Assembly: GCA_002753615.1 (NCBI GenBank)
Contig: PEAO01000025.1
Span: 1 to 35,279 of the forward strand
Length of the DNA: 35,279 nucleotides
Direction of reading: 5' to 3'
Origin: Magnetococcales bacterium DCbin2
GTDB taxonomy: Bacteria; Pseudomonadota; Magnetococcia; Magnetococcales; UBA8363
Positions 13,493 through 20,940 of the stretch are shown here, one piece after another. The notes below the pieces were generated by a model, which was not told the DNA's origin, searched no databases, and saw nothing but the letters and a program-made list of their open reading frames with translations. Made by a program: the position numbers and the translations under genes. How positions within the stretch are numbered: the first letter of the stretch is position 1; each line of letters begins with the position of its first letter.

Positions 13493-14647
13493 ATGCCATT
13501 TACTCCAAACAGATTTGGCCAGAAATTGCGCGGGTTGGTAGATGATCGTCAGGAGTCAATCCCCGATATTTCTGTAGCAACAGGCATCACCCAGAACAGG
13601 CTTTCCAGTATAAGTCAGGGGGAAATCGAACCCAGTGGTGATGAGGTTCTCATCTTAGCGGATTATTTCAAATGTGGTTTTGAATGGCTCATCGACGACG
13701 ATACCCCAAACCCGGATGAAAATGTGCATCTTATGTTCCGTCGGGAAGGCGGCAGGCTGAATCGGGAAGACAGAAAATCCATACAGGAATTCATATTCCT
13801 CTGCCGCAATCAGGCGTTCTTGGAGAACTTACTCAATCGCACGCCAAACGCCCAAGTTCGACGGTGTCAGTCGCAGGGGAAATTTTATAAAGATCATGGA
13901 ATGCAATGTGCCCAACAGATTCGGCAGAAGCTTGACATCCCTCCCAATGGGATTGTTCTCGACATTTATCAGAAGCTCCGTGGTGCTGGATTGAAGGTGT
14001 TCCGGCTTATGCTGGGTAGTTCATCAATTTCCGGACTCTCCATAAACCACCCTGAAGCTGGGAGATGCATCCTGGTCAATTATTCTGAAGACTATTTCCG
14101 CCAGTGCTTCAGTGCAGCCCATGAGTGCGCCCATGTTTTTTTGGATGATGACAACGACTACAACATCTCCCGCGATGGTGATTGGAGCAGCAGTGATCTA
14201 AAGGAGATTCGCGCAAATAGTTTCGCTTCTCATTTCTTGATGCCTGTGGAATTATTGAAGTCCCGGAGATCATCAACCGAATGGCATGATTCTGCAACCC
14301 TGCTGAGCGAGGCCAGAATGTTTCGTGTCACGGTACCCGCATTGCTGAAAGCACTTTTAGACGCAAAACTAATTACAAAACAACAGCGGGAACAGTTGCA
14401 TAATCGCAGATTGACCGATGCTGGAAGAGAAGACCCTGAGTTGCCCGGGACGCTGACACAGCAGCAAAGGCAGCGTAGATTAGCTTTGTTGAAGAAAGGG
14501 CTATCCCCGGCCTATCTTGATCTTTGTTTTGATTCCTATCAGCAGAATTTGATTTCTCGCGGTAAACTGGCAGAATGTCTTATGACCGATGTGCATGGTC
14601 TAGCCGGAATTGGTATTTTGTTCAATCGGAGCCTGAAGCATGAGTAA
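13493..14647 (+). CDS. XRE helix-turn-helix + ImmA/IrrE-type metallopeptidase
   Basis: 384 aa; N-terminal HTH (VATGITQNRLSSISQGEIEPSGDEVLILADYFKCGFEWLIDD); AAHECAHVFLDD (HExxH) and EIRANSFASHFLMP (typical ImmA/IrrE second motif). Confidence 0.85.
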   Translation: MPFTPNRFGQKLRGLVDDRQESIPDISVATGITQNRLSSISQGEIEPSGDEVLILADYFKCGFEWLIDDDTPNPDENVHLMFRREGGRLNREDRKSIQEFIFLCRNQAFLENLLNRTPNAQVRRCQSQGKFYKDHGMQCAQQIRQKLDIPPNGIVLDIYQKLRGAGLKVFRLMLGSSSISGLSINHPEAGRCILVNYSEDYFRQCFSAAHECAHVFLDDDNDYNISRDGDWSSSDLKEIRANSFASHFLMPVELLKSRRSSTEWHDSATLLSEARMFRVTVPALLKALLDAKLITKQQREQLHNRRLTDAGREDPELPGTLTQQQRQRRLALLKKGLSPAYLDLCFDSYQQNLISRGKLAECLMTDVHGLAGIGILFNRSLKHE

Positions 14648-16640: not shown

Positions 16641-17441
16641 GTGTTTGCGTACTCGCAGGATAGAGACCGCCGTATCGGGCGTTGGTTTGGGTTGACGTTG
16701 GGCGGTTGCTTGGCGGCAGGCTCCTTGGTTGCCGGAGAAAACGCCGGTTCTCAGACCGATATTCGGGCCTACTTGGTGCCTCGGACGCAAACGACGCTAT
16801 CGGCCCATATCGATGGAGAAATCCAGCAGTTGATGGTCAAGGAGGGCGACACGTTTGCACAAGGTGCCCCTCTGGTTGTTTTTGACTGTGCCTTGCTTGC
16901 GGCCCAACATCACAAGGCGGCGATGGCGTGGCGTGCCGCGATCGATAAAAACAAAGTCATACAAAGGCTGGCTGAATTACACTCCGTCGGTACCCTGGAA
17001 GCAGACGCCAGTCGGGCCGAAGAACAGTTGGCCGAGGCAGAGCTAAAACTTCAAGAGACGCGCATGCGGGGGTGTCGGATTCTTGCCCCTTTTGCCGGAC
17101 GGGTCGCTACCCTGACCATGCGGGAACACCAATATGTGACGACAGGACAGGTGATCATGAAACTATTGGATCATCGCCATCTGGAGATGGAGATGATTGT
17201 CCCCTCCCGCTGGTTGACATGGCTCAAGGTGAAAACCCCCTTCACCATACAAATCGATGAAACCGGGAAAAAATATACCGCCCAGGTGATCCGTTTGGGT
17301 GCCGAGGCGGACCCTTTGAGTCAATCTCTCAAGGTGGTGGGGGAGATTGTTGGCGATCAATCCGACCTGATGCCCGGTATGAGTGGTGCCGCCTATTTCT
17401 TGCCACCCTTGGCAGGGATGGCGGTCTCTTCCACACCCTGA
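16641..17441 (+). CDS. RND/HlyD-type periplasmic adaptor (biotin/lipoyl-like hairpin) protein
   Basis: 266 aa (GTG start); hydrophobic N-terminus, then SAHIDGEIQQLMVKEGDTFAQGAPLVVFDC ... ILAPFAGRVATLTMREHQYVTTGQVIMKLLDHRHLEMEMIVP, typical membrane fusion protein motifs. Confidence 0.8.
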   Translation: MFAYSQDRDRRIGRWFGLTLGGCLAAGSLVAGENAGSQTDIRAYLVPRTQTTLSAHIDGEIQQLMVKEGDTFAQGAPLVVFDCALLAAQHHKAAMAWRAAIDKNKVIQRLAELHSVGTLEADASRAEEQLAEAELKLQETRMRGCRILAPFAGRVATLTMREHQYVTTGQVIMKLLDHRHLEMEMIVPSRWLTWLKVKTPFTIQIDETGKKYTAQVIRLGAEADPLSQSLKVVGEIVGDQSDLMPGMSGAAYFLPPLAGMAVSSTP

Positions 17442-17457
17442 CATAAGAATCGTCACG

Positions 17458-18810
17458 ATGCCGATTCATGGGGAAAAACTGATCACCGGTCTGAGTGCCC
17501 TGTTACAACTGGGTAAGCGGGCCTTTGCCGCCGAAGATGAGACCTCATTCAGCTTTCTGGTCGTCAATGAAACCCATCTGATGGCACCTTACCGACAAGC
17601 CGTTTTGTGGCAGCGGTTTGCCGACGGAACGGGAAGGGTCATTGCGGTTTCGGGATCCCCCGAAGCGGGACCACGCGCCCCTTATATCGTATGGTTGACG
17701 CGGGTTCTCGACCGAGAGTCGATTCAACAACAGAGAAGCCCGCTTTGTGTGTGTGCTGCGGATATCCAGGGTGATGACGGTGCCGCCTGGGAACAATGGT
17801 TGCCGGCGCATGCCCTTTGGGTTCCGCTGGTGACCGGTTTGGGCGAAATGTTGGGGGGGATGCTGCTGGTCAAATCAACGCCTTGGACCGATACCGAAAT
17901 CAAACTGTTGGGCAAACTGGCTGATTCCTATGCCCATGCTTGGGAGTTGATTCGTAAGCGTCGTCATCGCCGGGGTATCCCCTGGAAAACGTGGTATACG
18001 TCCCGTCGCGGTCGGATCAAGATGGGATTGGGACTGGCGGTGTTGTTGGCCTGTTGGGCACCCATGCGACAATCGGTTCTGGCACCCGCTGTGGTCACGG
18101 CTTTGGATCCCACACCCATTCGCGCCCCTATGGAAGGGGTGATCGACCGTGTTCATGTGACCCCCAATCAGAGGGTACATCAGGGGGATTTGCTGGTCAC
18201 GTTGGATGAAACGGTGTTGGACAACAAGTTGGAAGTGGAAAATAAATCTTTCAACTTGCTTCAGGAAGAGTATCAACAGGTTCTTAAACAGTCCGTTACC
18301 GATCCAGAAATTCGTGTGCAGAAAGGAATTTTGGAAAAACGGATGGAAAAACAAGATGCAGAGACACGCGGGATCCGTATTTTGCTCAACCGGGTGCGTG
18401 TGTTGGCACCTCGTGATGGCGTGGCCATTTTTTCCGATAGCCACCATTGGCTGGGAAAACCGGTACAGATCGGAGAGCGGATTATGGATATTGCCGATCC
18501 AAACGTCGCCGAGTTGGAGATTCGGCTGCCGGTCAGCGATATGATTGCATTGGATGGCAACGCCCGGATCACACTCTACCCCAATAGAGATCCGTTGGAT
18601 TCCTGGCCAGCTTCTTTGACCTACGTGGGTTATGATGCCCAGGAAATGGAAGGGTCTCTCGTCACTATCGTGCGGGGGCATTTTTTGACCCAAGGCAATC
18701 CCCCACCCATCGGGCTGCGTGGCACGGCAAAAATTCAGGGGCGACAAACGACGCTGTTCTATTATTTGTTCCGACACCCCCTGTCTCTCTTGCGGCAACG
18801 GCTGGGTTAA
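17458..18810 (+). CDS. GAF-like domain fused to a transmembrane HlyD-type adaptor
   Basis: ORF 17383-18810, ATG at 17458. N-terminal ~160 aa GAF-like (WVPLVTGLGEMLGGMLLVKSTPWTDTEIKLLGKLADSYAHAWE), a TM segment (MGLGLAVLLACWAP), then IRAPMEGVIDRVHVTPNQRVHQGDLLVTLDE ... VLAPRDGVAIFSDSHHWLGKPVQIGERIMDIADPN. Confidence 0.75.
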   Translation: MPIHGEKLITGLSALLQLGKRAFAAEDETSFSFLVVNETHLMAPYRQAVLWQRFADGTGRVIAVSGSPEAGPRAPYIVWLTRVLDRESIQQQRSPLCVCAADIQGDDGAAWEQWLPAHALWVPLVTGLGEMLGGMLLVKSTPWTDTEIKLLGKLADSYAHAWELIRKRRHRRGIPWKTWYTSRRGRIKMGLGLAVLLACWAPMRQSVLAPAVVTALDPTPIRAPMEGVIDRVHVTPNQRVHQGDLLVTLDETVLDNKLEVENKSFNLLQEEYQQVLKQSVTDPEIRVQKGILEKRMEKQDAETRGIRILLNRVRVLAPRDGVAIFSDSHHWLGKPVQIGERIMDIADPNVAELEIRLPVSDMIALDGNARITLYPNRDPLDSWPASLTYVGYDAQEMEGSLVTIVRGHFLTQGNPPPIGLRGTAKIQGRQTTLFYYLFRHPLSLLRQRLG

Positions 18811-20940
18811 GTGGACGCGGCGACGTCCGATACCGGCAGGCCACCGCCATTACGTGAGGAACTACACCTTTTTCCCGGTCCCCACTTGCCCGACGGTGCC
18901 CCCACCTGGACATTGCGTGATCCGGCGAACAATCAATTTTTCAGGATCGGTTGGCGGGAGTTTGAGATTCTGTGCCGCTGGCGTCATGGGGCACCCAGCC
19001 GTATCGCCGAACTGGTTTCTGCCGAAACCACCTTGGAAACCACCGCCGAAGATGTGACCCGGCTGGTCCGTTTTCTTCTTGAGGCCAATTTGCTGCGCCC
19101 CCAGGGGGAACGGGGGATGACGCGCTTGACCGATCAGGTCAACGCGGCCCGGCATTCTTGGTTGCATCACCTGTTACATGCCTACCTGTTTTTTCGGATT
19201 CCGCTTGTGAACCCGGACCCATTTTTGCGCAAAACCTTGCCGTGGATGCAATGGGCTTTTTCAAAAAATTTTTTGATCGTCACAGCCATGGCTGGACTGT
19301 TGGGGTTCTATTTGATCACCCGGCAGTGGCATATCGCCGTGACGACTTTTCGTGAAACCGACTTAATGACCGAGGTGTTGTTGATCTCCTTGGGGACGTT
19401 TTTGACCAAGACCATTCATGAATTGGGACACGCTTATGCCGCTACCCGCTATGGTTGCCGGGTGCCGACCATTGGGGTTGCTTTTTTAATGTTGATCCCG
19501 GTCTTATACACCGATACCAGTGAGGTCTGGAAATTGGCCTCGCGTCGGCGGCGGTTGGTCATTGCGGCTGGAGGCATTTGGGCGGAATTGTTATTGACGG
19601 CGTGGGCATCGATGCTCTGGGGTTTGTTGCCTGTGGGAGGTTTGAAGGACGCTCTGTTTTTTATTGCGACGGTGAGTTGGATTTCGACAATTCTCATGAA
19701 TGCCAGCCCTTTTCTACGTTTTGACGGGTATTATCTGTTTTCGGATTGGTTGGGAATTGAAAATCTTCATGATCGCGCCGGGCGGTTGGGCCGTTGGAAA
19801 GTGCGTGAACTATTGTTGGGCCTCAAGGCCCCTATCCCGGAACCGGCGTTGTGTGATCGCCAACGATTTTTAATCGGTTTTGCTTGGTTGACTTGGATTT
19901 ATCGGCTGGTTTTATATTTTGGAATCGCCATTGCTGTTTATCACATGTTTTTTAAATTATTGGGAATCCTACTCATGGCTGTTGAAATTGGATGGTTTTT
20001 GGTCCGTCCCATTGGCAATGAAATCGGTATTTGGTTGCGTCCAGAGACCCGTTTGCGCTGGAATGTCTCGGCTGTGCGCTCTGTGATGGTGTTGGTCGGC
20101 TTGATTCTTTTGCTGCTTGTCCCTTGGAAAGGTTCTGTGCATGCCCCCGCTGTTTTCCAACGGGAAGAGCGGATCACCCTTTATGCCCCGGTCCCGGCGC
20201 GTGTCGAACGGATTGATGTTACCGAGGGGAGCCGGGTTGAAAAAGGGCAAACCTTGTTGCAACTGTCCGCACCGGATTTGATCAACAAGCTGGCGGTGGC
20301 GCGAATCCAGGCCGAAACTTCGTTGTGGAAACGCAATCTGCGCGGTGCCCATCAGACGCTCTTGAGGCAAGCACCGCTGAATGATCGCCAGTTTGAGATT
20401 GATCTGGCCCTGTATGCGGCGTTGCAACGTGAACGCAAACGGTTGACGGTGGTTGCCCCGAAGGCGGGTTGGGTTGCTTTTTTGGGCAAGGAAATCAAGA
20501 CGGGGGTTTGGGTGAATACAACCGAGCCGTTGTTGGATCTGACCCATCCCGATGGATGGCATGGCATGGCTTATCTCGGTGAGGCCGACTTGAATGCGGT
20601 CATGCCTGGGGGTTCCTGTGTTTTTCTGCCGGAAGGGATCGATTGGGATGCCATCCCTTGTCATGTTTCTTCGATTGCTGCGGTGGCGGCACCGACGTTG
20701 GATGAACCATTGTTGTCCACGCAGTATGGTGGTTCTCTTCCGGCGCACCGGGATGAGAATGGACGCTGGATCCCGACGACCGCTATTTATCTGATCATTG
20801 TGCGGCCAACGGCTTCTTTTTCCCCGCCCGACCATCGATTGCGTGGTAGCGTTATCTTGGAACGTAGCACCTCCCAAAGTTGGTTGTCACAACTTTACCG
20901 GGCTGGTGCCCAGATTGTGATCCGGGAAATGGGATTTTGA
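18811..20940 (+). CDS. Multi-pass M50 (site-2-protease-like) peptidase with N-terminal PqqD-like and C-terminal HlyD-like domains
   Basis: 709 aa (GTG start); LTKTIHELGHAYAATRYG (HExxH) and NASPFLRFDGYY (second metal-ligand motif); N-terminal LRDPANNQFFRIGWREFEILCRWRHG (PqqD-like); C-terminal LYAPVPARVERIDVTEGSRVEKGQTLLQLSAPDL...VVAPKAGWVAFLG. Confidence 0.8.
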   Translation: MDAATSDTGRPPPLREELHLFPGPHLPDGAPTWTLRDPANNQFFRIGWREFEILCRWRHGAPSRIAELVSAETTLETTAEDVTRLVRFLLEANLLRPQGERGMTRLTDQVNAARHSWLHHLLHAYLFFRIPLVNPDPFLRKTLPWMQWAFSKNFLIVTAMAGLLGFYLITRQWHIAVTTFRETDLMTEVLLISLGTFLTKTIHELGHAYAATRYGCRVPTIGVAFLMLIPVLYTDTSEVWKLASRRRRLVIAAGGIWAELLLTAWASMLWGLLPVGGLKDALFFIATVSWISTILMNASPFLRFDGYYLFSDWLGIENLHDRAGRLGRWKVRELLLGLKAPIPEPALCDRQRFLIGFAWLTWIYRLVLYFGIAIAVYHMFFKLLGILLMAVEIGWFLVRPIGNEIGIWLRPETRLRWNVSAVRSVMVLVGLILLLLVPWKGSVHAPAVFQREERITLYAPVPARVERIDVTEGSRVEKGQTLLQLSAPDLINKLAVARIQAETSLWKRNLRGAHQTLLRQAPLNDRQFEIDLALYAALQRERKRLTVVAPKAGWVAFLGKEIKTGVWVNTTEPLLDLTHPDGWHGMAYLGEADLNAVMPGGSCVFLPEGIDWDAIPCHVSSIAAVAAPTLDEPLLSTQYGGSLPAHRDENGRWIPTTAIYLIIVRPTASFSPPDHRLRGSVILERSTSQSWLSQLYRAGAQIVIREMGF

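Follow-up and report, generated by a model that had tools for sequence, protein, structure and literature searches.

The closest described relative of the locus analysed here is a set of genes coding for an M50-HlyD protein, a GAF-HlyD adaptor and an HlyD adaptor, which is found around secondary SecA_DEAD ATPases and sometimes includes a TolC-like outer-membrane component (OEP; Kamneva, Poudel and Ward 2015, PMC4452313). According to the accessible part of that paper, in which the three-adaptor set is already published, the M50 protein was suggested to act as the pore and SecA as the motor, whereas the role and the substrate of the system were left open; neither LEPR-XLL nor DUF4347 is named in that part of the main text. 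Within the open-licence literature on M50, HlyD, SecA and giant proteins, it is the only report on this locus (subscription journals and preprints may differ), and the accessible portions of the same literature mention LEPR-XLL and DUF4347 in passing. Hereafter, type A denotes the SecA2-less form, which is the form found in the window, and type B the SecA2-bearing form of Kamneva et al. 2015. M50-HlyD, GAF-HlyD and HlyD adaptor occur together in both, but the secondary SecA_DEAD protein is missing from the window and from the type A form; moreover, the present analysis adds a proposed family of substrates and a candidate signal at their N-terminus.

The type I secretion system (HlyB-HlyD-TolC) offers a further comparison, since HlyD-type adaptors are common to both systems, giant repeat proteins are likely substrates in both, and the TolC-like OEP is shared by most related loci, although not by the window locus. 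Conversely, the scanned ORFs of the window include no ABC ATPase/permease gene, and a scan for LSGGQ detected one between giant and M50 in a single locus out of 53 related ones; an M50 membrane protease occupies the inner-membrane place, and the candidate type A tag lies near the N-terminus. With the site-2 protease (M50) family, including daptide_HExxH, the window protein shares the HExxH and NxxPxxxxDG motifs and a multi-helix membrane architecture, but it is fused to a PqqD-like N-terminus and to a C-terminal HlyD adaptor. Many bacteria encode giant repeat proteins without an evident export route. The NCBIfam model LEPR-XLL (NF012209, LEPR-8K) describes very large proteins with a short LEPR-x-LL motif near the N-terminus, as is the case here, whereas the window giant and the other type A giants carry an [MVLA][FY][DE][GA] variant.

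The three-gene set and its genomic context

The window is the whole analysed stretch of 35,279 nucleotides and corresponds to contig C32 of a 3.36 Mb Magnetococcales genome (201 contigs, 78% complete). Profile searches confirm three plus-strand genes coding for an RND adaptor, an HlyD adaptor and an M50/HlyD protein, and place them downstream of a DUF4347 giant (Table 1), as the first-pass annotation had proposed. The same annotation had noted that neither a HlyB-type ABC ATPase nor a TolC-like protein is encoded here, which holds among the scanned ORFs of the window locus (the small ORFs at 11.3-13.3 kb being left out). However, the absence of TolC does not extend to the relatives, most of which have an OEP (see below), and the label "ATPase-less" fits the window locus but not the sister form with SecA2 that the same genome carries on C163 and C39.

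Table 1. Features of the window (C32) and related gene sets of the same genome
Contig	Positions	Strand	Feature	Basis or content
C32	851-3007		718-aa protein	
C32	3276-11267	+	Giant repeat protein, 2663 aa, presumed substrate	DUF4347 (E 2.6e-57), tandem-95/cadherin-like repeats
C32	6807-10090		Long direct repeats in the giant	Period ~420 bases (shifted matches to L172)
C32	11289-15440		Stretch between giant and adaptor operon, with M78/HTH gene (13493-14647)	Comparison with same-genus genome
C32	16641-17441	+	RND/HlyD-type periplasmic adaptor, 266 aa	TIGR01730 E 4.7e-26, HlyD_3 E 2.5e-18
C32	17383-18810	+	GAF-HlyD adaptor	HlyD_3 E 4.6e-12; likely start ATG 17458
C32	18811-20940	+	PqqD-like / M50 site-2 protease / HlyD fusion, 709 aa	Profiles: Peptidase_M50 E 7.8e-8, HlyD_3 E 5e-8
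C32	21101-35057		Kinase/chemotaxis block	
C32	22913-33356		Chemosensory cluster	CheB, CheR, CheA-type kinase, response regulator, CheW
C32	35058-35279		Fragment of decayed second M50 copy	
C196	L050 9711-10158		Fragment of decayed second M50 copy	
C200			Type A set	OEP (E 1.2e-21), RND, GAF-HlyD, M50, then DUF4347 giant
C43			Type A set	DUF4347 giant, RND, GAF-HlyD, M50 gene split into two ORFs
C6			Type A set	1892-aa LEPR giant with OEP domain, FlgO-like gene, RND, GAF-HlyD, contig end
C52			Type A genes	GAF-HlyD, M50
C117			Type A gene	M50
C163			More distant set	SecA2-like protein directly behind M50; LEPR-XLL protein starts on opposite strand
C39			More distant set	SecA2-like protein directly behind M50 gene

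The likely start codon of the giant is ATG 3297, its DUF4347 spans aa 106-269, and, in the numbering of the listed ORF, the motif LERRLMFDAAG is found around aa 50. The protein had been called a LEPR-XLL giant, a designation to be narrowed to a variant of that motif, and no match of the window giant to NF012209 is reported at E 0.01. Between the giant and the adaptor operon lies a toxin-antitoxin-type stretch, most of which is missing from the same-genus genome L172, where the gap is ~1.2 kb; this stretch therefore looks like an insertion, outside the putative machine.

The genome holds several paralogous sets (Table 1), and three type A clusters, including that of the window, share their contig with a DUF4347 giant. 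The C6 giant has no DUF4347 call, while carrying the tag beside a type A set, and it is a single ORF (L045:3109-8787) in which repeats are joined to a TolC-like OEP at ~aa 1339-1811. The giant of C163 matches NF012209 (E 3.1e-6).

Anatomy of the GAF-HlyD and M50 proteins

In the GAF-HlyD adaptor, a GAF-like domain at the N-terminus is followed by a single predicted membrane helix (ORF aa 208-224) and an HlyD part. The GAF assignment made from the letters alone is faint in the window copy, where the isolated region reaches a Pfam E of 0.0031, under the cut-off, and it finds backing in the family, 9 of whose 55 members are matched by Pfam GAF. The AlphaFold models of this protein and of the M50 protein are confident overall (pLDDT 89.6 and 88.9, respectively), and the HlyD part of the former matches MacA. 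Full-length fold searches return, among the matches listed, only periplasmic adaptors (MacA, MexA, AcrA, EmrA and ZneB types), so that at the level of predicted structure they confirm the HlyD parts only.

In the M50 protein, the HlyD portion begins at ~aa 440, and daptide_HExxH ranks first among the NCBIfam models (E 2.6e-41, under the model cut-off). H203, E204, H207, N297, P300 and D305 are invariant among 69 M50 sequences, and the conservation of these metal-binding/catalytic residues argues for a working site-2 protease with intact active-site motifs. As regards the N-terminus, Pfam detects no PqqD in the window protein, in 68 relatives or in the isolated N-termini, and the alignment with the PqqD structure PDB 3g2b covers the full domain at an insignificant E of 0.35. 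However, the homologous N-terminus of the SecA2-type copy of the same genome (L052) matches TIGR03859 PqqD (E 2.6e-5, under the cut-off), and the modelled domain has a beta-beta-beta-alpha-alpha-alpha topology. The PqqD call of the first-pass annotation, for which Pfam gives no match, is thus retained as a PqqD-like assignment that rests on homology to the type B copy and on the predicted topology.

Linkage and gene order across genomes

Among the 80 loci listed, the nearest are those of two Magnetococcales MAGs (L053 and L054), with 60-61% best-segment identity, and the others reach ~35-42%. Methylomonas and Azospirillum are among the environmental isolates with a type A match. Fifty genomes picked for carrying an M50 relative yielded 63 type A M50 genes, and for 38 of these a DUF4347 gene lies no more than 20 kb away, with the strand shared in 37 cases, against 1.1 expected under random placement; counted against the linkage are the remaining 25, whose own contigs show no DUF4347 in that range, some of these contigs being short. 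A second sample of 397 genomes was drawn evenly across the phylum, with own-order genomes that had a match left out. Here, 35 genomes have both genes, 4 the type A M50 only, 23 DUF4347 only and 304 neither (Fisher 6e-29, kinship ignored), where absences are approximate because scoring covered the two best M50 candidates of each genome and not every DUF4347 match was listed. Counting by family gives 15 with both, 1 with M50 only, 11 with DUF4347 only and 54 with neither (Fisher 1.3e-8). The 4 genomes with a type A M50 and no DUF4347 count against the association; conversely, 30 of the 43 type A M50 genes of this sample, in 13 families, lie at most 35 kb from DUF4347. The co-occurrence check suggested with the original annotation therefore returns a strong and conserved linkage, so that the lack of linkage named there as speaking against the proposal is not what the genomes hold.

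The usual type A order is giant, TolC-like OEP, RND, GAF-HlyD and M50. Upstream sequence of 6.5 kb or more is available for 53 related loci; of these, 52 have GAF-HlyD upstream and in the same orientation, 45 have RND and 43 the OEP, and 46 have a long ORF up- or downstream. In the gene orders, for which the ORF caller prefers the longest frame, antisense ORFs hide some genes of GC-rich loci. Counting against the export reading given below, the OEP is absent from the window locus, from L133 and from the same-genus L172. An unrecognised ABC ATPase gene at the locus was considered and discarded, as 52 of these 53 loci have no ORF with LSGGQ between the giant and M50.

The two forms also differ in SecA. 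The SecA2 profile has no match in the 80 type A loci, whereas a query covering the 50 M50-selected genomes and the genome of the window (G000) places extra SecA copies, shorter than the main SecA, behind type B M50 genes in G000, G005, G011, G014, G017, G020, G043 and G047, and gives a single SecA-like match in the others. The idea of a SecA2 encoded elsewhere in type A genomes was set aside, because most of these genomes give a single SecA-like match.

A candidate N-terminal tag

Near the N-terminus, each of the 43 type A giants inspected (42 in the tally plus L142 from a wider scan) carries LE-x-R-x-[MVLA]-[FY]-[DE]-[GA]. Across the 42 tallied motifs, L, E and R never vary and D hardly does; the motif overlaps a short hydrophobic run and is preceded by a basic stretch (median net charge +5). 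Shuffled N-termini contain it in 0 of 11,200 cases. At type B loci, some of which gave no giant N-terminus, nine motifs out of nine end in [LFY]-[SA]-A-[DT], in the manner of LEPRxLLSAD, and one of them departs from LE (FESRILYSAD); the difference between the two forms has a Fisher value of 3e-10, to be read with the fact that the classes were defined while viewing the same loci and that the set of nine motifs was compiled manually once the sequences had been viewed. As judged from these sequences, the candidate tag variant matches the apparatus variant.

DUF4347 proteins from genomes with no detected type A or B M50 served as controls, and the tag occurs in none of ten (Fisher 5.6e-10 against the type A giants, computed with 42/43), which indicates that it tracks the apparatus and not DUF4347. 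The C6 giant, with tag and type A set and without a DUF4347 call, points the same way. Among these controls, L214-L216 adjoin genes for an HlyD adaptor and an ABC protein (type I secretion models match both neighbours of L214 and the ABC protein only of L216), L213 has RTX and VCBS domains, and the N-termini of L208, L210, L211 and L212 read by eye as Sec signal peptides. We infer that LEPR-XLL may address these giants to an export machine of their own.

A putative export machine and alternative readings

The functional link between the apparatus and the LEPR giants is well supported by these comparisons, and export of the giants by the set is the preferred reading. Specifically, the type A genes probably form a machine dedicated to the export, and probably also to the processing, of giants bearing a LEPR-XLL-type tag. 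A dedicated machine for the giant had already been suggested from the window; the link gains from the linkage, the gene order, the motif-apparatus match, the apparatus-free control and the giant-OEP fusion of C6, while the export step keeps the rank of a preferred reading. In such a machine, the inner-membrane core would be the site-2 protease fused to HlyD. The tag would be recognised either by the GAF domain of the adaptor or by the M50 protein through its cytosolic PqqD-like domain, and the M50 domain would cut within or close to the short hydrophobic run with which the tag overlaps. With their HlyD parts, the three adaptors would form a periplasmic conduit that docks on a TolC-like OEP; most relatives encode this OEP next to the set, and C200 may supply it for the window set. 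As type A loci encode neither SecA2 nor an ABC ATPase, the machine would draw its energy from canonical SecA/SecYEG or from another source, whereas the sister form carries SecA2.

A different division of labour, in which the giant crosses the inner membrane via Sec and the M50/HlyD set merely cleaves, releases or anchors it, deserves attention and is nevertheless unlikely. The invariant active-site motifs of M50, the lack of an ATPase gene at type A loci and the apparent Sec-type signal peptides of several apparatus-free DUF4347 giants are all in keeping with it. However, three HlyD-bearing proteins with an OEP at most loci resemble a trans-envelope conduit and exceed the needs of an anchor, and the type A giants show by eye no plain Sec signal, having R and D within the hydrophobic stretch.

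PqqD-like domains are found in RiPP systems, and the M50 protein might accordingly mature a short peptide, coupling maturation with efflux, with the giant as a neighbour or a target of that peptide. The daptide_HExxH match and the PqqD match of the SecA2-type copy would fit this scheme, but the linkage is to giants, and the gene orders, built from ORFs of at least 110 aa and hence a weak negative, contain no conserved small gene; RiPP maturation as the main function was therefore demoted to a weak rival and appears quite improbable. As to a coincidental or co-inherited neighbourhood with no functional coupling, several genomes hold multiple M50 copies, so copies may spread or duplicate; against it stand 38 linked pairs where 1.1 are expected, the phylum-sample and family-level associations, on which a chance neighbourhood was rejected, and the tag variant that follows the apparatus variant, leaving this explanation barely credible.

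Returning to export by the M50-HlyD set, a broader view, towards which we are slightly more doubtful than favourable, is that of a widespread two-membrane route in which M50-HlyD would replace the ATPase and would read and cut a LEPR-type tag, with tag and apparatus paired in two variants. If the export reading is true, a machine and a short address tag would be assigned to a large class of giant repeat proteins, and the NCBIfam LEPR-XLL model would gain a possible function. The question posed in 2015 on the cargo of the SecA-linked HlyD/M50 locus would then receive a named substrate, a motif and catalytic residues, and a new mechanistic question would arise, namely how an ATPase-less conduit moves proteins of ~1,000 to 10,000 residues.

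Additional features of the window and of the genome

Upstream of the giant, the 718-aa protein has no Pfam or NCBIfam match, and its C-terminal DMSGSTKGWVNDAI looks VWA/MIDAS-like by eye. The DUF4347 giant of C43 (L042:6026-10540) has a C-terminal stretch that matches the EACC1-associated caspase family NF047832 (E 5.8e-17, under the cut-off). A decayed second M50 copy is present in fragments at the end of the window and on C196, 90-97% identical to the intact M50 gene of the window; pieces between the two fragments are missing, and both contig ends share an exact overlap of 83 bases. The kinase/chemotaxis block sits between the intact M50 gene and the decayed fragment, and one 1084-aa product of the chemosensory cluster combines Hpt, HAMP and MCP domains.
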